From Clostridia bacterium (GTDB taxonomy: Bacteria > Bacillota > Clostridia > Christensenellales > Aristaeellaceae), in contig JAFXQO010000024.1 in NCBI GenBank assembly GCA_017527065.1, forward strand, positions 1 through 42,221: a DNA stretch of 42,221 nucleotides, in the 5' to 3' direction. The notes under the pieces were generated by a model that was not told the origin of the DNA, did no database searches, and saw only the letters and a program-made list of their open reading frames with translations. The translations under genes and the position numbers were made by a program. Shown piece after piece: positions 29,531-41,642 of the stretch; the first letter of the stretch is position 1, and each line of letters opens with the position of its first letter.

Positions 29531-32500
29531 ATGAAGCGGAGAATCCTTGCGATCGTGCTGACGGCACTCATGCTGCTGTGTATGGCGCCTGCGGCAATGG
29601 CGTACATGAACGCGGACGGCACAACCGAGCACGACCATCAGTGGCAGGCCGTGGAGGGAAGAGTCATACCCGCGACCTGCACCGAATGGGGCGCTCACAC
29701 AGAACAGTGCATCCTTTGCTATGAGACCAGAACCGTTGACGATCCGCCCCTCGGCCATCTCTGGAGCGAGTGGCAAATCACCACCGAACCCACCTGCACG
29801 GAACCGGGCCTGAAGAAGCGCGTCTGCCTGCGGCCCGGCTGCGAAGTGGAGGAGACCGGGATTGCCGACGCGCTGGGCCACAAGTATTCCCAGTCCACCG
29901 TGACCCGGCAGCCCACCTGCGCGCAGAAGGGCGAACGGCGCGTCAGTTGCTCCCGCTGTGGCAAGTCCTTCACCGAGAGCATCGACAGGACGCCGCACAC
30001 CTGGGGCGCCTGGACCGTCGTTGTGGAGCCGGGCCTCTGGACGAAGGGCCGCGAAGAACGCACCTGCTCCGTCTGCGGCGCGAAGGACTCCCGCGATACC
30101 TACATGGAAGGCACCGTGGTTCCCGGCGAGCGCAGCGAAAACGCCAAAGCCCTCCAGGAAGCGCTGAACGCCGCGGGCTTTGACTGCGGCAAGGCGGACG
30201 GCATCGTGGGCAACAAGACCACTTCGGCCATTTCCGCCGCCGAGGAAGCCGCTGGCCATCCTGCCACCGGTATCGGCTGGGTCGGCCTGAAGAACTGGCT
30301 CTCCGGCAGTTCGCCCGACCTGCCTGACCTGCATGACGCCTTTATCATCTGGGTGGACGCTCCCGTCAACAGCGACGCGAAGGCGGGCGAGTTCATTCCG
30401 ACGACGCTGCACATCAAGAACACCGGCGTCACGACGCTGAGGATCACCGGCCATTCCTACGGCGATTACGCCGAAGGAAACGTGGATTACATAAGCGGGG
30501 AGACCATTGAGAGCAAAGATCCGTATGGCGTGCTTAAGCCCGGCGAAGAAACCACTGAGACTTACAACGTCATGGTGACGGACGCCGACGTGGCGGCCGG
30601 CCAGGCGGTCCGCCAGGTATCCGTGGCCTGCCATCGCTTTGAGAACGACGACGACGTCGGCGAGTCCATGGGCCAATACATCAGCTTCGTCATCCGCCTG
30701 GGAGAATCGGTCCTGCCCTTGGAGCCGATTGACGACTTCATCATCTGGATCGACGCGCCTACCGCCAGCGGCGCGAAGGCGGGCGAAACCATTCCGACGG
30801 CCCTGCATATAAAGAACACCGGCAACACCACACTGCGGGTGACCGGCTCGTCTTACGGTACCTGTACTTTCGACAGCGACGGCAAGCGAATAACTGTTGA
30901 GGGGGAAACGATCGACACCAGCCTGTTTTTCAGCTCCGACTACACGCTTGCCCCCGGCGCGGAAGGAATCGCGGTGTACAACGTCATGGTGACCGAAGCC
31001 GAAGAGGCGGCGGGCCAGCTGAGCCGCGAAGCGGGCATCGCCTGCCACCGCTTTGAGAACGGCAACGACGTGGGCAACAGCATGGCCCGCTATGTTGAGT
31101 TCGCCATCGCGCTGGGCGCCGCGCCCGAACCCGGCCCCGTGATCGGCACACCCATCAACGCCACGGGCATCGACGTGACCTTCCATGAAGTGGTGGACAT
31201 CAACGACCCGGCCCTGGGCGAGACCGTCAAGACCACGCTCACCATCGCCAACGTGGGCGATACCACCCTCAACGTGACCAGCTACGAGATGGTGGACGGC
31301 GAAGGCAACGACCGCTCCGACGAAGGCACGCTGGAATGGAACTACTCCAGCGAACCGGCGGACGCCCGCGCCCTCAAGCCCGGCGAGCACTATTTCGTCG
31401 ACTACTACATCACCGTGAGGGAAGAGGATGTCGCCGCGGGCAAGGCGTACCGCACGTTCACGGCCTACGCCGTCAACGACACGGGCAACGCCGTGTCTGA
31501 CAGCGACGCCATGAACCTGCCCCTTCTCGCTGCGACGGCGCGCGACGGCGGCGTCGCGCTGACGCTGGACGGCGAGACACAGGAATACAAGGACTTCTAT
31601 CCGAACGACACCTTCTCCGTGACGCTCACGGCTGAAAACACCGGCTTCCAGGACCTGACCGGCCTTGTCATCGAGGTGTTCAAGGAGGACGCTGAAACCT
31701 TCTCGGAGACCAGCCTGGGCGAGGTTTATAACGGAGGCTCGGCCACCATTCTGCCGGCGGGCGGAAGCGTGAACGCCTCGTATGTCTACGAGATCAAGCC
31801 CGAAGACGCGGGCAAGCTCGTAACGCTGATCTTCTACGCCAAGGCGCTCGACGCCACGGGAGCGATCGTGGAAGCCGCTCCCTGGAGTTGCGAATTTGAA
31901 GTGGAGGATGGGGAAGAAGACTGGATAGTCGACCTGATTCTGGAAGAGCACACCCCCGAGACCACCGCGAAGCTGGGCGAAGTCATCGACGTGCCGCTTT
32001 CCGTAACGAACAAAGGAACGGTCGTCGTTGACATGGAAACCTGCTCCGGCACGGCGCACCACTGGAACCAGGTCATGCTCGGAAACGATCATATCCTCTT
32101 TGATCCCGACCATGGCAACCTCGAGCCGAACGAGACGCAGAACGGCTATATCTACAGCGTGCTCGTGCTGCCCGAGGACATCGACGCCGGCGAAGTGGTG
32201 CGCGAGGTGCGGATGGGCGGCTACCGCTGCATCACCACCGCATCCGGCTCGCCGGGCTACATGCGCGACGAGGAAGGCCAGACCATCCTGTTTGAAACCA
32301 ATTCGGTCATCATCCGCATCCCGCTGGACGACAACCAGCCCAACGGCAGCCTGCTCCTGGAGCAGAACGGCCCCGCCAGCCAGCCGGACGGCGCGCTGGG
32401 CGAATGGATCAGCGTGCCGCTCAAGCTGACCAATACCAGCGACACGAGTATCTATATCACGCAATGCTATACCTGGAATCCCGACGACGGCTGGGCGCTG

Positions 32501-35500
32501 GATTCCGGCTACGTCAGCGAACCGAACGGCGGCACAGGCAATGCCGACCCGCTGGGGCCCGGCCTGTTCTTCACCTGCGATCTCTCCATCTACGTGACGC
32601 AGGCGGACGTGGACGCGGGCGAAATCAAGCGCGAGGTGTACTTCTCCGGACGGCATGCGCAGTACGCCAAGGTCTATGAGCAGAGCGTCAATTCCAACAC
32701 CGTGACCATCACGCTGCCCCTGCGCGCCGTCGATGACAGCGCCTTCATCGAACTTGAGCTGAGCGCCGGCCCCGTGTCTCCCGTGTACGCCGAAGTGGGC
32801 GACGTTCTTGAAGCGCCGCTGACTCTTACCAACCACGGCAGCGCTGCCGCCAGGGGCGTAGGCCTCACATACTGGTATGACAGCGGCGACCTGGCTTACG
32901 CGGACGACGTGATCATCGGTTCCAACTTCTACTGGCTGGAGCCCAATGGCGGCCAGGATGAGCAGACCTACCGCGCCGTTGTGACGCAGGATGACATCGA
33001 CAAGGGCTACGTTTCCCGCACCATTTATGAGAGCGCGTTCCGCTGGCTCGTCACAAATAAAGACGAAGCCGGCGAAGGAGCGTGCGCCATCGACGACGCT
33101 GTCAACAGCAACGAGGCCACCATCTATATCCCGCTGCTGTCCGATCCGCCCCGCAGGACCCACGGCGGCGAGCCTGAACTGGTGCTAACCATGGTGCAAA
33201 CATCGCCCGTTCAGGCGGCCTATAAGAGCGGACAGAAGATCGAGTATAACTGGACGCTGACCAACATCGGCTCCGCGGACTGCGATTTCGGCGGACTGAT
33301 GATGTACTTCACCAACAAGGAAGGCAACATGGTCACGGCGGATGTGCTATTCTACGGTGTTGACAGCCGCGTTGTGCTCACGGCCTTCGGCGGCAGCACG
33401 AAAGGCACCGGCTCCTTCATCCTGGACGCCTCTCAGATCCTCAGTGACAGCTTCGTCGTGCCGGCCTTCTACGGCCAGGGCTACTACCCGTACTCCACCG
33501 AGGTCTGGGTCTACTCCAACACGGTTAAGTTCGAGTACCTCATCGACGACAACACCTGGACGCCCGATCCCACCGAGGTGAAGGTGAGCATCGACAAGTG
33601 GGAAGACAGCTACAGCGCCGACCCGCACGGCTATGTGAAAAACGAGACCGTGTGGTATCGCGTCAATGTGAGCAACGACGGAAATGTCGACCTCCACAAC
33701 GTGGTGATCGAAGACCCGCTGTACACGGACTCCGAAGGCGGCCATGTGATCGCCCAATTCGACACCTTTGCGGCCGGCGATTACTACTACGATTACTATG
33801 CCTACGTCGTGACGTCTGACGATGTGTCGAGGACCTACATCGAGAACACCGCCTACATCACCTGGGACGATCCCATTACCGGCGAACGCGTGACCAAGCC
33901 TTCCTACCCGGTGAACGTGCCCACCTACGAGAGCACGCCCGTCCCGCCTGTGAAGAAGGGCACGCTGTTTGTGTACAAGAGCGAGACCAGCACGCCGGCG
34001 AACGATTTCTACCAGGAGAACGAGGTCATTACCTATAACATCGTGGTCCTCAACGACTCCAACCAGACGGCCTACGACATATATGTGGACGACGCGCTGG
34101 TGACGGGCGGCAACAAGAGCATCGCCTACATCGCGCAGTTGGCTTCGGGCGCTTCCTACACCGTCCCGTTCAGCTACATCGTGACGGGGCCGGACTGCGA
34201 CAACGGTTCCGTGACCAATACAGCCAGCATCGCCTGGACCGACTCGGACGGCCACGGCCACACCGCGACGAGCAATCCCGTGACCTCGCCCACCGGCTGG
34301 CCCAAGGATAAGGGCGGCCTGGTTGTGACCAAGGCGGAAATCAGCAAACCGCTGAACATGAGTTACTACACGGAAGGCGAAGTCATTGAGTACAAGATCG
34401 TTGCGATCAACACGAGCGATCACCTGCTCACCGACGTGGAGGTCTACGACCTGCTGAGCGACATGGGCTTCGTCCCGCTCGGCACCGCGGAGCTCCTGCA
34501 TCCCTCCGAGGCGAGGACGTATTACTTCTCGCACACCGTGACCGCCGAAGACGTGAATCGCGGCTATGTGGAGAACTTCGCCGTGGGCTTCTACACGGAC
34601 GAAAACGTATACGGCTTCACCGAATCCAACCATGTGTTCAGCGACACCAACGGCGAGCCCGAGGATCACACAGGCGATCCCGACGGCTTCCCCACGCCCA
34701 TCGCGCAGGGTGATTACTGCTACCTGACGCTGAACGGCAAGGGCGCGGGTACGGGCGATTACACGCAGCACATCTGCGCCGAGCATCTGCCCGTCGCCAA
34801 GCAGGTTGACGCGCTGGTGAGCGCCGCGGCCGACGCCGACGCGCGCACCATGGCCTGGAAGACGGCCCGCGCGCTGTGGCAGGCGAAGATCGACGAGAGC
34901 TACGAGATCCTCTACGCCGCCGCGCTGGATATGCCGACCCGCCTGATCGTGCTGAACGAGCGCATGCTGTTCGCCGCGCAGGCCGATCTCTACGAGCGTG
35001 AACTCGCCCTGATCTATCCGGACGACGAGGAGACCGTGGCGATGAGGCTCGCCGAGATGATGATGAACAAGAGCGCCGAGCTGTGCTATGAGATTCACAC
35101 CGCGCCGGCCGACCGCGTCGACAGCCTGCTGGGCAGCCACGTCATCCTGGCGGACGCCGCGGACGCCGAGGCCTGCGCGCGCGCGATCCTCGAACGTAGC
35201 GAGACAGACACCCGCTACATCGAGACCCTGTGCTCCGAACACGCGGCCACCGACAAGGCGGTGCTCGAAAAGGTCGAAGCCACTCTGACGCTGGCTGAGA
35301 ACGAACGGGCCGAAGCCTTCGGCAAGGTGTTCGCGGAGGCGCGCAAGCTGTGGCTTGCCCAGCTGGACGCCGGCGTGAACGAGCGCTACCGCACTGTGGA
35401 CAGCGCCGACCGCCCGCTCATTGCCGCCAGCCGCACGACCTTCGGCAACTGGCTGCACACCCGCGAGGCGCTGCTTGAGCTGCTCTATCCTGAGAAAGAG

Positions 35501-35587
35501 GCGGCGGTGAACGAGGTTCTTGCCAGAACCATCATGTGCCGCACGATCGACGGCTGCATCGCCGACGCCGACGCAAACGCCGACTGA
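29531..35587 (+). CDS. Giant secreted multi-repeat protein (CxxC repeats, peptidoglycan-binding-like, DUF11/DUF7507-like repeats, helical C-terminus)
   Basis: A 2018-residue exported protein of unknown function. Residues 1-24 are a signal peptide (AMA-Y cleavage). Residues 35-195 hold four Cys-rich repeats (PTCTEPGLKKRVCLRPGC, PTCAQKGERRVSCSRC style) seen in surface proteins of gut Firmicutes. Residues about 200-258 resemble peptidoglycan-binding domain 1 (ENAKALQEALNAAGFDCGKADGIVGNKT). About ten beta-sandwich repeats follow (about 268-1720), with a KNTG/TNxG opening and a VTxxDVxxGxVxR/N closing motif, as in DUF11/DUF7507/CARDB families. The last 280 residues are a duplicated helical module with Cys pairs. 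No sortase signal or C-terminal membrane segment is present, so wall binding would rest on the N-terminal domain. GGGGGA precedes the ATG. Confidence 0.88.
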   Translation: MKRRILAIVLTALMLLCMAPAAMAYMNADGTTEHDHQWQAVEGRVIPATCTEWGAHTEQCILCYETRTVDDPPLGHLWSEWQITTEPTCTEPGLKKRVCLRPGCEVEETGIADALGHKYSQSTVTRQPTCAQKGERRVSCSRCGKSFTESIDRTPHTWGAWTVVVEPGLWTKGREERTCSVCGAKDSRDTYMEGTVVPGERSENAKALQEALNAAGFDCGKADGIVGNKTTSAISAAEEAAGHPATGIGWVGLKNWLSGSSPDLPDLHDAFIIWVDAPVNSDAKAGEFIPTTLHIKNTGVTTLRITGHSYGDYAEGNVDYISGETIESKDPYGVLKPGEETTETYNVMVTDADVAAGQAVRQVSVACHRFENDDDVGESMGQYISFVIRLGESVLPLEPIDDFIIWIDAPTASGAKAGETIPTALHIKNTGNTTLRVTGSSYGTCTFDSDGKRITVEGETIDTSLFFSSDYTLAPGAEGIAVYNVMVTEAEEAAGQLSREAGIACHRFENGNDVGNSMARYVEFAIALGAAPEPGPVIGTPINATGIDVTFHEVVDINDPALGETVKTTLTIANVGDTTLNVTSYEMVDGEGNDRSDEGTLEWNYSSEPADARALKPGEHYFVDYYITVREEDVAAGKAYRTFTAYAVNDTGNAVSDSDAMNLPLLAATARDGGVALTLDGETQEYKDFYPNDTFSVTLTAENTGFQDLTGLVIEVFKEDAETFSETSLGEVYNGGSATILPAGGSVNASYVYEIKPEDAGKLVTLIFYAKALDATGAIVEAAPWSCEFEVEDGEEDWIVDLILEEHTPETTAKLGEVIDVPLSVTNKGTVVVDMETCSGTAHHWNQVMLGNDHILFDPDHGNLEPNETQNGYIYSVLVLPEDIDAGEVVREVRMGGYRCITTASGSPGYMRDEEGQTILFETNSVIIRIPLDDNQPNGSLLLEQNGPASQPDGALGEWISVPLKLTNTSDTSIYITQCYTWNPDDGWALDSGYVSEPNGGTGNADPLGPGLFFTCDLSIYVTQADVDAGEIKREVYFSGRHAQYAKVYEQSVNSNTVTITLPLRAVDDSAFIELELSAGPVSPVYAEVGDVLEAPLTLTNHGSAAARGVGLTYWYDSGDLAYADDVIIGSNFYWLEPNGGQDEQTYRAVVTQDDIDKGYVSRTIYESAFRWLVTNKDEAGEGACAIDDAVNSNEATIYIPLLSDPPRRTHGGEPELVLTMVQTSPVQAAYKSGQKIEYNWTLTNIGSADCDFGGLMMYFTNKEGNMVTADVLFYGVDSRVVLTAFGGSTKGTGSFILDASQILSDSFVVPAFYGQGYYPYSTEVWVYSNTVKFEYLIDDNTWTPDPTEVKVSIDKWEDSYSADPHGYVKNETVWYRVNVSNDGNVDLHNVVIEDPLYTDSEGGHVIAQFDTFAAGDYYYDYYAYVVTSDDVSRTYIENTAYITWDDPITGERVTKPSYPVNVPTYESTPVPPVKKGTLFVYKSETSTPANDFYQENEVITYNIVVLNDSNQTAYDIYVDDALVTGGNKSIAYIAQLASGASYTVPFSYIVTGPDCDNGSVTNTASIAWTDSDGHGHTATSNPVTSPTGWPKDKGGLVVTKAEISKPLNMSYYTEGEVIEYKIVAINTSDHLLTDVEVYDLLSDMGFVPLGTAELLHPSEARTYYFSHTVTAEDVNRGYVENFAVGFYTDENVYGFTESNHVFSDTNGEPEDHTGDPDGFPTPIAQGDYCYLTLNGKGAGTGDYTQHICAEHLPVAKQVDALVSAAADADARTMAWKTARALWQAKIDESYEILYAAALDMPTRLIVLNERMLFAAQADLYERELALIYPDDEETVAMRLAEMMMNKSAELCYEIHTAPADRVDSLLGSHVILADAADAEACARAILERSETDTRYIETLCSEHAATDKAVLEKVEATLTLAENERAEAFGKVFAEARKLWLAQLDAGVNERYRTVDSADRPLIAASRTTFGNWLHTREALLELLYPEKEAAVNEVLARTIMCRTIDGCIADADANAD

Positions 35588-35601: not shown

Positions 35602-35651
35602 GGCCCGCGCGGGAACGGATTGCGTTCCCGCGCGGGCCGATTTTTGTTTTT
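35602..35651 (+). terminator. Strong intrinsic terminator after the giant gene
   Basis: A perfect 16-bp stem (35602-35617 with 35623-35638) with a 5-base loop, followed by TTTTTGTTTTT from 35641. It isolates the secreted-protein unit from the GH120 operon. Confidence 0.95.
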
Positions 35652-35654
35652 CGA

Positions 35655-35683
35655 TTGACAAGCCCGCGATTGCCCATTATACT
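35655..35683 (+). promoter_or_regulatory. Sigma-A promoter of the GH120-MATE-kinase-phosphorylase operon
   Basis: TTGACA (35655-35660), 17 bases, TATACT (35678-35683), directly behind the terminator and 43 bases before the ATG. Near-consensus, so expression is probably high unless repressed; no catabolite-repression box was recognised. Confidence 0.9.
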
Positions 35684-35726
35684 TGAATCACCGAGTGAAA
35701 ATAAAATAGAGGAAGGATGAATTTTC

Positions 35727-37727
35727 ATGATTTATTACGTCAACGCCAGCGTGTCCCGCGACGGCAACGGCTCGAAGCAGATGCCCTTCAGACACATTGA
35801 CGACGCGGCGAAGGTCGCCATGCCGGGGGACGAGGTCCTCGTCGCGCCGGGCGTTTACAGGGAATACGTCAATCCCCGCAACGCGGGCACGGAGGACAGG
35901 CGCATCGTCTACCGCTCGGAGCAGCCGCTGGGCGCGGTTATCACCGGCGCGGAGCCGCTTTCCGGCTGGACGAAATACGACGGCGACGTGTGGACGGCGC
36001 GCGTCGACAACGGCGTTTTCGGCGCCTACAATCCCTATACGACCATGGTCTGCGGCGACTGGTACTTCGCCCCGACCGTGCGGCATACCGGCGCGGTGTT
36101 CCTCAATGACAAAATGATGTACGAGACCGTGTCGCTGGAGGAGTGCGAAAAGGGCGAAGCCGATCCCTGCGCCTGGAACGCGGAGGAATCCACCTGGAAG
36201 TGGTACACCGAGCAGGCGGACGGCCAGACCGTGCTCTATGCGAACTTCCATGGCCTGAACCCGAACGAGGAGAAGGTCGAAATCACTGTGCGTCGCAACT
36301 GCTTCATGCCGGATAAGAACGGCGTAGGCTACATCACCGTGAGTGGCTTCGACATCAACAAGGCCGCCACCACCTGGGCCCCGCCCGCGGCCTATCAGGA
36401 CGGCATGATCGGCCCGCACTGGTCGAAGGGCTGGATCATCGAGGATTGCGAGATATGGGGCAGCAAGTGCTGCGGCATTTCCCTGGGCAAGTACCGCGAC
36501 CCGGAAAACGACATGTATTTCTACACGAAGCACGTCAAGAGCCCCACGCAGATGGAGCGCGACGCCGTATGCCGCGGCCAGTATCACGGCTGGCTCAAGG
36601 AGAACGTGGGCAGCCACATCATCCGCCGCTGCCACATCCACCACTGCGAGCAGACCGGCATCGTGGGCCGCATGGGCGGCGTGTTCTCCACCATTGAGGA
36701 CTGCCACATCCACCACGTGTGCAACTCTCAGCAGCTGGGCGGCGCGGAGACCGCCGGCATCAAGCTGCACGCGGCCATCGACGTGACCGTGCGCCGCAAC
36801 CACATCCACAACTGCATCATGGGCGTGTGGTTCGACTGGCAGGCCCAGGGCGCGCGCATCACCCAGAACCTGATGCACGACAACTTCCGCCCGGACGGCG
36901 TCGAGCCGGCCCGCGGCGCCATGTTCTCCAACGACGTGTTCATCGAGGTAGGCCACGGCCCGACGCTCATCGACAACAACATCCTGCTCTCCAAGGCGTC
37001 GGTCATCATGCCCAGCGAAGGCGTCGCCTGCGTGCACAACCTCATGCTCGGCGCGTTCGGCCTCATCAATTCCGGCGTGGACAGCGTGGTCAACGGCCAG
37101 CGCGAGCCGCGTTACACGCCCTACCACATCCGCCACCGCACCGAGGTGGCCGGCTTCATGACCATCCTGCACGGCGACGACCGCGTCTACAACAACATCT
37201 TCGTCCAGCATTATCCCGTCACGGATCCCGCGAAGACGCCCGCCAACAACGACTACGAGGTCGTCGGAACGGCCCCGTTCGACATCTTCCCGACTTACGA
37301 CGAGTGGATTTCGCACTTCATGATGGACCGGGAGCCGAACATGGGCGCGCTCGCGCCGTATCACTTCGGCCATCTGCCCGTTTGGGTGGAGGGCAACGCC
37401 TACTTCAATGGCGCGACTGTGTGCAAGCACGAGAAGCGCAACCTGATCGACGAAAAGGACAAGGTATGCGTCGAGCTGGCCGAGGAAGAGGGAAAAGTGG
37501 TGCTCAGGACCAACGTGTACGACTTCCTGAAGGACTTCCGCGACGGCATCATTACCAGCGACATACTGGGCTGTGCCTTCGAGCCGGAACAGCGATTCGA
37601 GAACCCGGATGGCTCGGAAATCATCTTCGACCGCGACTATTTCGGCAATCATCGCGGCCTGGACGCCCTGCCCGGTCCCTTCGCAACCGGCGAGGCGGAG
37701 CGTGCCGTGTGGCGTGAAAATAGATGA
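35727..37727 (+). CDS. GH120 beta-xylosidase (right-handed beta-helix)
   Basis: A 666-residue intracellular glycosidase resembling Thermoanaerobacterium XylC of family GH120, which splits xylose from xylobiose and xylo-oligosaccharides. Shared blocks, compared from memory, include the N-terminal YYVNASVSRDGNGSKQMPF, AMPGDEVLVAPGVYREYV, ATTWAPPAAYQDGMIGPHWS and AGIKLHAAIDVTVRRNHIHN. The XylC nucleophile Asp382 corresponds to Asp370 (GVWFDWQAQG) and the acid/base Glu405 to Glu407 (NDVFIEVGHG). The stretch between them is 14 residues longer here than in XylC. There is no signal peptide. GGAAGG lies in the leader before the ATG. The stop overlaps the MATE start (ATGA). Confidence 0.9.
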   Translation: MIYYVNASVSRDGNGSKQMPFRHIDDAAKVAMPGDEVLVAPGVYREYVNPRNAGTEDRRIVYRSEQPLGAVITGAEPLSGWTKYDGDVWTARVDNGVFGAYNPYTTMVCGDWYFAPTVRHTGAVFLNDKMMYETVSLEECEKGEADPCAWNAEESTWKWYTEQADGQTVLYANFHGLNPNEEKVEITVRRNCFMPDKNGVGYITVSGFDINKAATTWAPPAAYQDGMIGPHWSKGWIIEDCEIWGSKCCGISLGKYRDPENDMYFYTKHVKSPTQMERDAVCRGQYHGWLKENVGSHIIRRCHIHHCEQTGIVGRMGGVFSTIEDCHIHHVCNSQQLGGAETAGIKLHAAIDVTVRRNHIHNCIMGVWFDWQAQGARITQNLMHDNFRPDGVEPARGAMFSNDVFIEVGHGPTLIDNNILLSKASVIMPSEGVACVHNLMLGAFGLINSGVDSVVNGQREPRYTPYHIRHRTEVAGFMTILHGDDRVYNNIFVQHYPVTDPAKTPANNDYEVVGTAPFDIFPTYDEWISHFMMDREPNMGALAPYHFGHLPVWVEGNAYFNGATVCKHEKRNLIDEKDKVCVELAEEEGKVVLRTNVYDFLKDFRDGIITSDILGCAFEPEQRFENPDGSEIIFDRDYFGNHRGLDALPGPFATGEAERAVWRENR

Positions 37728-39091
37728 AGGTTCGCGATATGACCGAGGGCAGCCCCGTCCGGCTGATCATGCTGGTGGCGCTGCCCCTCATGCTGGGCAA
37801 CGTGTGCCAGCAGCTCTACACCGTGGTGGACGCCGCCGTGGTGGGCCGGGGCATCGGCATGGACGCGCTGGCGGCGCTGGGCAGCTCGGACTGGTTCAAC
37901 TGGATGTGGCTGAGCATCGCCCAGGGCCTCACGCAGGGCTTCGCGATTCCCATCGCGCAGGCGTTCGGCGCGAAGGACTATGCGGCGCTCCGCCGGTGCG
38001 TGGGCGGGGCGGCCTCGCTCACGGCGCTGCTGGCCGCGCTGCTCACCGGCGCGGCGCTCCTCGCCATTCATCCGGTGCTCGCGCTGCTGGGCACGCCGGC
38101 CGAGATCCTGCCCACCGGCGCGGCGTACCTCACCGTGCTGTTCGCGGGGCTGCCGGTCGTGATGGCGTATAACCTGCTGGCGGGCATCCTGCGCGGCTTT
38201 GGCGACGCGCGGTCGCCGCTCATGGCCATGGCGCTGTCATCCGCGGTCAACATCGGGCTGGACATCCTGTTCGTCATGGGGTTCGGCCTCGGCGTGACCG
38301 GCGCGGCGGCCGCGACGGTAATCGCGCAGGGATGCTCCGCGGCGTTCTGCCTGCTGCGGCTGCGCGGGCTGGATTTCCTGCGCCTGAAACGGGCCGACTT
38401 CCGCCTCACGCGCGCGCAGGCCAGTTCGCTGATGAAACTGGGCGTGCCGGTTTCCATGCAGAACGCGCTGATTTCCGTCGGCGGCATGATCGTTCAGACG
38501 GTGGTCAACGCCCTGGGCGTGGCGTTCATCGCCGGCTATACCGCCACGAACAAGCTCTACGGCCTGCTCGAACTGGCCGCCGTGTCCTACGGCTACGCGC
38601 TGTCCACCTACGCCGGGCAAAACTACGGCGCGGGCCAATACCAGCGCGTCCGGCGGGGCGTGCGCGCCGGGGCGGCTACGGGCGCGCTCACCGCGGCGGG
38701 CATTTCGCTGGCGATGTTCGCGCTGGGGCGGCCCGTGCTGGGCCTGTTCATCGACCCGGCGGCCGGAACCGGCGAGGCCATGGAGGCGGCGTGCGAGTAT
38801 TTGTACACCATGAGCGCCTGCCTGCCGGTGCTGTATGTGCTCTATGTCGTGCGTTCGACGCTGCACGGCATCGGCGATACGCTGACGCCCATGCTCTCCG
38901 GCATGGCGGAGTTCGCCATGCGCACCGGCTCGGCGCTGCTGCTGCCGCGCTGGATCGGCTATCGCGGGGTTTTTGCCGCCGAAGTGCTGGCCTGGGCCGG
39001 CGCGGACGTGATCCTGATCGCGGGCTGGATGCGCGCGAAGAGAAAGCGGCTTCCGCTCACTGACAGGACGACGCAGAGGAGTGGGATATGA
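37724..39091 (+). CDS. MATE family transporter
   Basis: A 455-residue polytopic protein with about twelve membrane segments in two homologous halves. It belongs to the MATE family (MTEGSPVRLIMLVALPLMLGNVCQQLYTVVDAAVVGR at the N-terminus, AGQNYGAGQYQRVRRGVRAG in the second half), whose members exchange Na+ or H+ for an organic substrate, usually exporting it. It overlaps the GH120 gene and the following kinase gene by 4 bases each, so all are translated together. A role in moving a glycoside, aglycone or sugar by-product of this operon is inference; drug export is what sequence alone would suggest. Confidence 0.92.
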   Translation: MKVRDMTEGSPVRLIMLVALPLMLGNVCQQLYTVVDAAVVGRGIGMDALAALGSSDWFNWMWLSIAQGLTQGFAIPIAQAFGAKDYAALRRCVGGAASLTALLAALLTGAALLAIHPVLALLGTPAEILPTGAAYLTVLFAGLPVVMAYNLLAGILRGFGDARSPLMAMALSSAVNIGLDILFVMGFGLGVTGAAAATVIAQGCSAAFCLLRLRGLDFLRLKRADFRLTRAQASSLMKLGVPVSMQNALISVGGMIVQTVVNALGVAFIAGYTATNKLYGLLELAAVSYGYALSTYAGQNYGAGQYQRVRRGVRAGAATGALTAAGISLAMFALGRPVLGLFIDPAAGTGEAMEAACEYLYTMSACLPVLYVLYVVRSTLHGIGDTLTPMLSGMAEFAMRTGSALLLPRWIGYRGVFAAEVLAWAGADVILIAGWMRAKRKRLPLTDRTTQRSGI

Positions 39092-40047
39092 TGATGGATT
39101 CTGTGCTGGAACGGATCGACGAAGCCCTGCGGGCCTGGGAGCCGCCCGAGGTTCCCCAGGACATCCCGCAGGGCGACATGCCGGGCGACAGGGTGTGGAT
39201 CGGGCCGCAGGCCGAGAAGAAGGCGCAGGCCGTGTTTCGCGCGCTGCTGCCCCTGCTGCGCGAAGCGCTCTCCGCGAATCCCCGCCGCCGGGCGGTCGTG
39301 GCCGTGACGGGCGGCAGCGGGGTGGGGAAGACCTGCGTTTCCGCGCTGCTGACGCATTACCTGAGCGAAATCGGCGTCGGCGCGTACACGCATTCCGGCG
39401 ACAACTATCCCCGCCGCATCCCCATCCAAAACGACGCGGAACGCATGCGCGTTTTCCGCTCGGCGGGCGTTCGCGGCCTTCTGGAAACGGGCGAATACAC
39501 CTCCGAACGCGCGGCGGCGCTGCGCCGGCTCCAGCTGGACGATCTGGACAGCGATCCCGCTCAACGCGCGGCGCACAGCTGGCTCGCCGCTTACCAGGCG
39601 GCGGGCCGCGCGGCGCTGGATGAGTATCTCGGCAGCGCGGCGGAACAGGGATATGAGGAAATCGGAGACGTGCTGCGCCGCTTCCGCGCAGGCGAGGATA
39701 AGATCTGGCTGCGGCGGCTGGGCCGCGGGCCGGAGGATCTGTGGTACGAGGAGAAGACTTTTTCCGGCGTATCCGTGCTGGTTCTGGAGTGGACGCACGG
39801 AAACAGCGGCCTGTTTGAAGGCGTCGATATTCCGGTGCTCCTGAGCAGCACTCCGGCCGAGACCCGCGCCTACCGCCTGGCCCGGGGCCGCGACGCAAAC
39901 GCGGACACCGCCTTCATCACCATGGTGCTGGAGCTGGAACAGGCCAAGCTGGAAGCGCGCGCCGGCACCGCGAAGCTGATCGTCTCCAAGGCGTGCAAGA
40001 CGCTGACCTACGACGAATACAAGGCCGAAATGGAAGCGGGCAGGTGA
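39088..40047 (+). CDS. P-loop kinase related to uridine kinase/phosphoribulokinase
   Basis: A 319-residue soluble P-loop protein. Walker A is VTGGSGVGKTCVSALL (residues 73-88). A DNY segment (SGDNYPRR, about 103-110) sits where uridine kinases and phosphoribulokinases have the substrate Asp. Then come VLVLEWTHGNSGLFEGVD, the Walker-B-like region that calls the substrate strand, and the lid AYRLARGRDANADTAFITMVLELEQ. The true substrate is not known. Because it is followed by a sucrose-phosphorylase-type enzyme 6 bases later, a sugar or sugar glycoside is the natural candidate. ATG 39088, 39091 and 39094 are all possible; AGAGGAG suits the first two. It overlaps the MATE stop. Confidence 0.78.
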   Translation: MMMDSVLERIDEALRAWEPPEVPQDIPQGDMPGDRVWIGPQAEKKAQAVFRALLPLLREALSANPRRRAVVAVTGGSGVGKTCVSALLTHYLSEIGVGAYTHSGDNYPRRIPIQNDAERMRVFRSAGVRGLLETGEYTSERAAALRRLQLDDLDSDPAQRAAHSWLAAYQAAGRAALDEYLGSAAEQGYEEIGDVLRRFRAGEDKIWLRRLGRGPEDLWYEEKTFSGVSVLVLEWTHGNSGLFEGVDIPVLLSSTPAETRAYRLARGRDANADTAFITMVLELEQAKLEARAGTAKLIVSKACKTLTYDEYKAEMEAGR

Positions 40048-40053
40048 GAGAGG

Positions 40054-41571
40054 ATGAATGAAAACCAGTACGGCGCGATTTTCAACGCCTATCCGGACAG
40101 CATGGGCGGCACGCTTGGCGACATCGTGTCCTTCCTGGGCCGGCCTGAGGCGAAGGGCGCGTTCTCGGCGTTCTACATCCTGCCCAGCCTGTATCATTCC
40201 GACCTTGACCGCGGCTTCTGCGTGGTCGACTACGGTCTCAACGAGGCGCTGGCCCGGCCGGAAAACCTCGCCGCGCTGCGGGCCATGGGCATTGGGCTAA
40301 AGCTGGATTTCGTGCTCAATCACGCCTCCGTGCAGTCGCCGCAGTTCCGCGATCTGCTGGCGAAGGGCGACGCGTCGCCCTACCGCGATTTCTTTATAAA
40401 CTGGAACGAATTCTGGCGCGGCCATGGCGAGATGACCGATACGGGTTACATTCAGCCCGACGCCGAACTCATCAAGGATATGTTTTTTCGAAAGCCGGGC
40501 CTGCCCATCCTCATGGTGGACTTCCCGGACGGGCGAAGCGTGCCCTACTGGAACACATTCTACCAACAGGTGGACGTGGACGCCAACGGCCGCAAGCACT
40601 ATCTCGGCCAGATGGACCTGAACATCAAATCGCCGCTGGTGTGGGATTTCTACGCCGATACGCTCAAAACGCTGGCGGGCTACGGCGCGCGGATCGTGCG
40701 GCTGGACGCCTTCGCCTACGCGCCCAAGGAGCCCGGCGCGCGCAATTTCCTGAACGAGCCGGGCACCTGGGACCTGCTGGACCGGGTGGCGGCGCTGGCA
40801 AGCCCTTACGGCATCGCGCTGCTGCCGGAAATTCACGCCAGCTATGCCGAGGGCGTCTGGCGCGCCCTGGGCGAAAAGGGCTACATGGTGTACGACTTCT
40901 TCCTGCCGGGCCTGCTGCTGGACGCCTTCGGGCAGGGCAGCGGCGAATACATCGCCCGCTGGGCGAACGAAATCACGGCCTCGGGCCTTCGCACGGTAAA
41001 CATGCTCGGCTGCCACGACGGCATCCCCGTGCTGGACCTAAAGGGCCTGCTGCCGGAGGATCGCATCCAGGCGCTCATCGACGCGCTGGTTTCACGCGGC
41101 GGCTACGTGAAGGACCTGCACGGCGCCAAGAATGTGTATTACCAGGTAAACGCGGCCTACTACAGCGCGCTGGGCGAAGACGAAGCGCGGCTGCTCACGG
41201 CGCGGGCGATCCAGGTCTTCATGCCCGGTCAGCCGCAGGTGTGGTATCTCGACCTGTTCGCCGGGAAAAACGACTACGAGGCCATGCGGCGCGCCGGGGC
41301 GGGCGGACACAAGGAGATCAACCGCACCAACCTGAGCGCAGACGACGTGGCGGCGGGGCTGGAAAAGCAAGTGGTTCTTAAGCAGCTGGCGCTTCTGAAG
41401 CTGCGCGGCGGATGCCCGGCCTTCCATCCGGAAGCGGACGTCCAGGTCGGCGCCGAGGGAAGCGGCCTGTTCATGCGATGGCGGCACGGTGGCCATGAGG
41501 CCGCGCTGCGGGCCGACCTGGCCACGGCGCGCTATGAGATCACAGTCGACGGCGCACGCCGGACCGACTAG
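40054..41571 (+). CDS. GH13_18 sucrose-phosphorylase-type glycoside phosphorylase
   Basis: A 505-residue alpha-amylase-superfamily enzyme whose length and motifs match sucrose phosphorylases, which convert sucrose and phosphate to alpha-glucose 1-phosphate and fructose. Catalytic residues are Asp218 (RIVRLDAFAYAPKEPG), Glu259 (LLPEIHASY) and Asp322 (LGCHDGIPVLD). Also typical are NHASVQSPQF, YQVNAAYYSALG and FMPGQPQVWYLDLFAGKND. Subfamily GH13_18 also contains sucrose-6'-phosphate and glucosylglycerate phosphorylases, and the acceptor pocket here (RKPGLPILMVDFPDGRSVPYW) differs from the bifidobacterial enzyme, so the acceptor is open. An adjacent kinase makes a phosphorylated acceptor worth considering. 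No signal peptide. AGGTGAG lies just before the ATG. Confidence 0.9.
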   Translation: MNENQYGAIFNAYPDSMGGTLGDIVSFLGRPEAKGAFSAFYILPSLYHSDLDRGFCVVDYGLNEALARPENLAALRAMGIGLKLDFVLNHASVQSPQFRDLLAKGDASPYRDFFINWNEFWRGHGEMTDTGYIQPDAELIKDMFFRKPGLPILMVDFPDGRSVPYWNTFYQQVDVDANGRKHYLGQMDLNIKSPLVWDFYADTLKTLAGYGARIVRLDAFAYAPKEPGARNFLNEPGTWDLLDRVAALASPYGIALLPEIHASYAEGVWRALGEKGYMVYDFFLPGLLLDAFGQGSGEYIARWANEITASGLRTVNMLGCHDGIPVLDLKGLLPEDRIQALIDALVSRGGYVKDLHGAKNVYYQVNAAYYSALGEDEARLLTARAIQVFMPGQPQVWYLDLFAGKNDYEAMRRAGAGGHKEINRTNLSADDVAAGLEKQVVLKQLALLKLRGGCPAFHPEADVQVGAEGSGLFMRWRHGGHEAALRADLATARYEITVDGARRTD

Positions 41572-41596
41572 GAACCGTGACCCAACGATATAAAAG

Positions 41597-41631
41597 AGCG
41601 GGAACCGCTTCGCTTCGAGGCGGTTCCCGCT
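41597..41631. terminator. Bidirectional terminator between the phosphorylase and acyl-CoA synthetase genes
   Basis: A perfect 12-bp stem (AGCGGGAACCGC 41597-41608 with GCGGTTCCCGCT 41620-41631). TTTGATG follows on the plus strand and CTTTTAT on the minus strand. It stands between convergent genes and probably serves both. Confidence 0.85.
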
Positions 41632-41642
41632 TTGATGTGTCT

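Follow-up and report, generated by a model that had tools for sequence, protein, structure and literature searches.

A predicted sucrose kinase and sucrose 6F-phosphate phosphorylase pair as the probable core of a four-gene operon in a Clostridia bacterium

The window analysed here is a stretch of 42,221 nucleotides, contig JAFXQO010000024.1 (C60) of a Clostridia bacterium of the Aristaeellaceae (assembly GCA_017527065.1; 3.07 Mb, 85 contigs, 89% complete), and it carries four tightly packed open reading frames (ORFs) on the + strand, which encode, in 5' to 3' order, a GH120 glycoside hydrolase, a MATE-family transporter, a P-loop kinase and a GH13_18 phosphorylase. The core of this operon is probably an intracellular sucrose-catabolic pair, made up of the kinase, acting on C6 of fructose, and a strict sucrose 6F-phosphate phosphorylase (SPP), with GH120 and MATE as genus-level companions. 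In the proposed route, the kinase would convert sucrose and ATP to a sucrose phosphate, most likely one carrying its phosphate on fructose C6. From sucrose 6F-phosphate and inorganic phosphate the SPP would then form glucose 1-phosphate and fructose 6-phosphate, and both products would enter glycolysis. The GH120 protein would be a cytoplasmic beta-xylosidase, probably acting on imported xylo-oligosaccharides, and the MATE protein a transporter, the two sharing the transcript through the gene arrangement of the genus. We infer these substrates and the position of phosphorylation from gene order, homology, the SPP signature, kinase-SPP pairing and gene fusions.

The GH13_18 enzyme (505 aa, 40054–41571, + strand) is predicted from its residues to be a strict SPP and not a sucrose phosphorylase. 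Its closest solved relative is IcSPP (6S9U), at 601.9 bits, with the runner-up at 281.9 bits, and its score against the sucrose phosphorylase equivalog TIGR03852, 297.3 bits, lies under the cut-off of 334.4. Loop A reads KNVYYQ (residues 359–364; codons 41128–41145, + strand), so that K359 and Y362-Y363-Q364 of the strict-SPP signature KXXYYQ (PMC7178133) are retained, and the sucrose-phosphorylase loop N(L/V)D(I/L/V)YQ is not found in this enzyme. When acceptor sites are defined as in PMC6720575 and PMC7178133, all listed IcSPP residues are present: R152, K364 and K434 of the fructose-6-phosphate site (IcSPP numbering) correspond to R146, K353 and K420 of the window enzyme, and the catalytic D223, E264 and D327 to D218, E259 and D322. 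A model's earlier annotation of this DNA, hereafter the sequence-only reading, had termed the enzyme sucrose-phosphorylase-type, which holds for the family and fails for the predicted substrate.

The kinase (319 aa, 39088–40047, + strand; Walker A GGSGVGKT, residues 75–82) is matched by Pfam and NCBIfam in its Walker region only, and there below the cut-offs. A tblastn search of plasmid records with the kinase returned a single match, an Agathobacter rectalis protein annotated as alpha-galactosidase, in whose C-terminal part the similarity lies (35% over kinase residues 81–305, E 3e-36); its locus reads AraC, binding protein, two permeases, alpha-galactosidase and gtfA, and resembles the published Rgaga1 locus. 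The same GH36-kinase layout was met in two further genomes (loci L069 and L070) as ORFs of 932 and 938 aa directly before an SPP gene, and Pfam, run on the 938-aa ORF alone, recognised GH36 domains and, C-terminal to them, a P-loop kinase match. Since these relatives show the AgaSK architecture, we identify the window protein as a putative AgaSK-type sucrose kinase; being without a GH36 hit, it does not have the bifunctional AgaSK architecture and would be a stand-alone form. Across 39 kinase rows, the Walker A residues G75, G76, S77, G78, G80 and K81 are invariant where aligned, and the blocks GD.Y..RIP..ND..R, EW.H and P.ET...R..R.RD are kept, together with the Walker A glycines and lysine, in at least 95%. 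A distant relation of the family to PRK is likely because the PF00485 model (PRK/uridine kinase) aligns with a longer part of some relatives, 13 of 29 matching at E 0.01 and L070 scoring above the cut-off. In PDB searches with the kinase, APS kinases and SRP GTPases were matched in their Walker region and phosphoribulokinase was matched weakly; none of these was retained as an identification. A scan of viral contigs gave one partial homologue, which was not used.

The pairing of the two genes was followed in three samples, namely 60 relatives, 391 genomes of the class and 299 genomes of the family f52, in which a kinase match was found in 6 (own genome included), 14 (own genome included) and 23 (three of them already seen) genomes, respectively. 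Stretches were fetched around all 38 kinase loci besides the window, and one of these (L013, genome G001), which has a TGA-containing piece of the kinase at the end of its contig, was excluded. In all of the remaining 37, each with a complete kinase, the kinase immediately precedes SPP in the same orientation; GH36 and kinase share one frame in two, and kinase and SPP do so in five. These single frames are L040:7216-9585 (789 aa), L081:6962-9364 (800 aa), L082:583-3030 (815 aa), L084:6889-9393 (834 aa) and L071:1-1956 (652 aa, cut by the contig end and included in the five). On the kinase tree, the fused rows stand in at least two places and not as one group (29 rows ungrouped; L082 on a long branch of uncertain place), and the split of a fused ancestor is conceivable. 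In a phylum sample of 398 genomes, the kinase occurs in three (own genome included), all of the same class. ORF calling in high-GC loci may choose antisense frames, as with the missed MATE of L156, which a separate search found, and gene neighbours are accordingly listed approximately; for the pairing of kinase and SPP, homology hits are the basis. The sequence-only reading had the kinase phosphorylating a sugar and the phosphorylase yielding glucose 1-phosphate, and on this sequence evidence the former is very likely and the latter agrees with the predicted SPP reaction; that the two enzymes work as a unit is supported as well.

Within the class sample, the 14 genomes with the kinase (E 1e-10) are the very 14 whose GH13_18 enzyme reaches at least 54% identity (own genome counted), and 10 of the 24 GH13_18 carriers, at 33–40% identity, are without the kinase. 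The association of kinase and strict SPP among these 24 has a Fisher p of 5e-7, computed as if the genomes were independent, which they are not. Residues YYQ and K434 occur together in 34/34 readable linked enzymes and in 0/10 unlinked ones, a count without L071 and L002, which contig ends truncate, without L078, whose SPP lies in two frames, and without a second, truncated GH13_18 of L010 that clustering alone had placed in the linked set of 38. Seven of the ten unlinked loops are of the sucrose-phosphorylase type and three are TtSPP-like. One of these seven is encoded in G406, a member of the genus (g87) that includes four kinase-bearing genomes: its loop reads NLDIYQ, and its gene is found near ABC permeases and a gene for a ROK-family kinase, as though phosphorylation had shifted to after cleavage once the enzyme changed.

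Which carbon of sucrose is phosphorylated is the point on which this reading has to be weighed. Both AgaSK of Ruminococcus gnavus and its isolated kinase domain act on sucrose, with Km values of 3.1 and 1.0 mM, respectively (PMC7688924). Several observations count against the proposed pair, among them the published position: AgaSK is described as phosphorylating C6 of glucose, the product having been named from mass spectrometry in that 2020 paper (PMC7688924), and a strict SPP is not expected to use such a product, so that at this position the chain from sucrose kinase to SPP would be broken. The window kinase is 35–43% identical to AgaSK-type domains, a distance at which the acceptor could differ, and an AlphaFold model of it, built on a two-row alignment, reached a pLDDT of 45 and gave no structure usable in fold searches. 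On the side of the phosphorylase, R152 is present in 10/10 and K364 in 7/10 unlinked enzymes and these sites do not discriminate, and the K of KXXYYQ is substituted (Q, R) in 2 of the 34 linked ones. Finally, the three unlinked enzymes whose loop is TtSPP-like (VHQ) have no kinase of this family and lie near PfkB-family kinases, adjacent in two cases and, in the third, with one gene between and on the other strand (gene neighbours were examined for four of the ten unlinked enzymes); SPP activity as such therefore need not accompany this kinase family.

It could accordingly be supposed that the kinase makes sucrose 6-phosphate on the glucose unit, which another enzyme would hydrolyse, and that the SPP separately uses imported sucrose 6F-phosphate, as in the model of Tauzin et al., where dietary sucrose 6F-phosphate is taken up as the SPP substrate (PMC6521584). 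The published assignment and this published pathway model speak for such a division, as does the single GH32 protein of the genome, encoded on another contig (C79). The fusion of enzymes with unrelated substrates would be unexpected, however, and the invariable adjacency of kinase and strict SPP, their five single frames, the scatter of the fused rows over the kinase tree and the occurrence of each only with the other in the class sample all tell against it. We regard this division as unlikely, although not negligible. Pairing and fusions favour fructose C6. An ABC permease cluster is found in 23/38 loci (Pfam run on the L074 members). Permeases of this type deliver unphosphorylated sugar.

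The pair is found with changing neighbours. A GH36 cluster occurs in 10/38 loci and a PF00756-type esterase cluster in 9/38 (Pfam run on two members of each). In seven loci (L035, L036, L041, L071, L075, L076 and L087), the esterase gene, assigned by clustering with Pfam run on the members from L041 and L071, immediately precedes the kinase or kinase-SPP gene, hinting at acylated sucrose as a source of sucrose there, and a CE2 esterase stands upstream of the kinase in L011. At L079:5696-7846, a beta-lactamase-family (PF00144) domain is N-terminal to the sucrose-kinase domain in one frame, directly before SPP. In the genome of the window, raffinose-family sugars could supply sucrose, since it has, besides the GH32 protein, a GH36 enzyme (736-aa frame, contig C78, strong match). 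The differing carbohydrate genes across loci suggest exchangeable front ends that release sucrose. A bolder extension would make the pair a portable terminus for sucrose from decorated sucroses, with a sucrose 6F-kinase (the published position being revised) and channelling to SPP in the fusions; its swappable front ends would be GH36 for galactosyl-sucrose (raffinose family) and PF00756-type or CE2 esterases for acyl-sucroses, and a xylosylated sucrose would fall to GH120 in this genus. Taken as a whole, this extension is improbable. The same variation of the surroundings, together with a kinase so diverged that the domain libraries see little of it, would also fit a kinase whose sugar is not sucrose but, say, a different fructoside, with the SPP acting on the matching 6F-phosphorylated glucoside. 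IcSPP, whose acceptor-site residues the window SPP keeps, acts on sucrose 6F-phosphate only and was inactive with the others of more than 30 acceptors tested (PMC6720575), and we consider another sugar to be an unlikely substrate.

The GH120 protein (666 aa, 35727–37727, + strand) is of the beta-xylosidase type, matching PF21258 at 9.2e-39 and PDB 3vst at 4.8e-132, and its insertion domain, beta-helix and both catalytic acids were recognised. D370 and E407 align with D382 and E405 of 3vst, which we take to be nucleophile and acid/base, respectively, and D370 and E407 are predicted to have these roles in the window enzyme. The MATE protein (455 aa, 37724–39091, + strand) has MatE domains (PF01554, 3.1e-43) and scores 202.9 bits against TIGR00797 (cut-off 147.4); by its family it would be a transporter, presumably with an export role.

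The sequence-only reading had these two proteins act with the pair on one mixed xylosyl glycoside, with GH120 trimming xylose, kinase and phosphorylase processing the rest and MATE exporting the aglycone. The ATGA overlaps and the single promoter agree with such a route, as does the presence of relatives of all four genes on one contig of the congener G004, in the order GH120, URO-D-like, MATE-like, NUDIX, MATE, kinase and SPP, with three genes between GH120 and MATE (L002:1140-4236). In L030 and L083, moreover, GH36 immediately precedes the kinase, and in the window GH120 is one gene further up. Distant MATE genes, 23–28% identical to that of the window, are found in the stretches of L078, L081 and L083, and the A. 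rectalis locus has an annotated one some 3 kb downstream of gtfA. The gene in L081 (L081:5289-6659, 28% identical) lies directly 3' of the kinase-SPP fusion gene. MATE genes are common, with matches at E 1e-60 in 36/60 genomes, one to five in each, and such neighbours may therefore be due to chance; close MATE relatives stand beside the pair in this genus only.

The distribution of GH120 tells against a common route. Among the 60 relatives, GH120 was found at E 1e-40 or better in 13 (own genome included), a kinase match in six and both in four, yet GH120 and kinase share a contig in only two of the 13, our genome (G000) and G004 of the same genus, with the limit that such linkage can be missed on short contigs. 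In nine other relatives, GH120 (63–81% identical) had no kinase, SPP or MATE hit called in the 6–18 kb stretch; eight of them are without a kinase match, and the ninth, G029, has its kinase on another contig. GH120 occurs in only 1/38 fetched kinase loci, that of G004, and outside G000 and G004 none of the GH120 contigs in the 60 genomes carries a MATE match at E 1e-60. Because GH120 and kinase meet on one contig in this genus only and GH120 elsewhere stands apart, we read the order GH120, MATE, kinase and SPP as a genus-level arrangement, in which the genes may be co-transcribed simply for convenience. A single four-protein route is very unlikely, and export of an aglycone by MATE found no support; a shared role of the four genes in the use of plant oligosaccharides is possible. 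Adjacency of the four genes in this genome alone, which the sequence-only reading had named as speaking against its own idea, comes close to what was found, in that kinase and SPP are conserved together whereas the adjacency of GH120 and MATE is confined to the genus.

The layout of the operon was found as first described. GH120 and MATE overlap by ATGA at 37724–37727, MATE and kinase likewise at 39088–39091, and six bases separate the kinase from the GH13_18 gene. A sigma-70-like promoter, TTGACA-17-TATACT, lies at 35655–35683 (+ strand) and is a consensus match only, with 11/12 positions; it is the top of three sites in the 7.2 kb scanned, for which shuffled sequences gave a mean of 1.1. Terminator-like hairpins bracket the operon, 3' of the preceding gene (35602–35638) and 3' of the last gene (41595–41633, no strand assigned), and are two of the nine found in the scan, against 4.4 in shuffles. 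This arrangement suggests that the four genes are co-transcribed. A Kyte-Doolittle window, which is not a signal-peptide predictor, shows no strongly hydrophobic N-terminus in GH120, kinase or GH13_18, consistent with the absence of signal peptides claimed earlier for the three enzymes. Upstream of the operon, positions 29531–35587 encode a 2018-aa protein with DUF7507/DUF11 repeats and a peptidoglycan-binding domain, probably a surface protein, followed by a strong hairpin; an AMP-binding enzyme follows downstream.

The operon is ordinary in kind, and its value lies in the question of which sucrose carbon the kinase phosphorylates. A review leaves open the source of sucrose 6F-phosphate for SPPs, naming a phosphotransferase system or a currently unknown one (PMC7178133). 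What the literature gives as the product of the linked kinase does not suit the SPP, and pairing and fusions point to this kinase as the source. The partial texts of PMC7688924, PMC6521584, PMC7178133, PMC10112845 and PMC11046441, supplements excluded, contain no mention of kinase-SPP fusions.

Among known systems, RgAgaSK/RgSPP of the Rgaga1 locus in Ruminococcus gnavus E1 likewise has a strict SPP immediately preceded by a homologous sucrose-kinase domain, a likeness that runs via the A. rectalis sequence, the R. gnavus sequences themselves lying outside our comparison. The Rgaga1 synteny group comprises Blautia hansenii, Eubacterium rectale and Clostridium sp. L2-50, the last of which reportedly has a gene of its own for the kinase (PMC7688924). 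Kinase and phosphorylase, for which the sequence-only reading saw no common textbook pathway, thus match a published pair of gut bacteria whose logic is already largely described (PMC6521584, PMC7688924), and the window adds a further example without GH36. In contrast to Rgaga1, the window operon has no GH36 fusion, ABC transporter or regulator, and has GH120 and MATE instead. IcSPP of Ilumatobacter coccineus, an organism presumably of another phylum, is by far the best solved match of the phosphorylase. The GH120 protein is homologous over its full length to the beta-xylosidase 3VST/3VSU/3VSV and keeps both catalytic positions, with the difference that in the window it sits in an operon with a sucrose pathway. 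The route by sucrose phosphorylase and fructokinase gives the same net products at one ATP per sucrose, and, compared with that route, the window kinase would act before cleavage and not after it.

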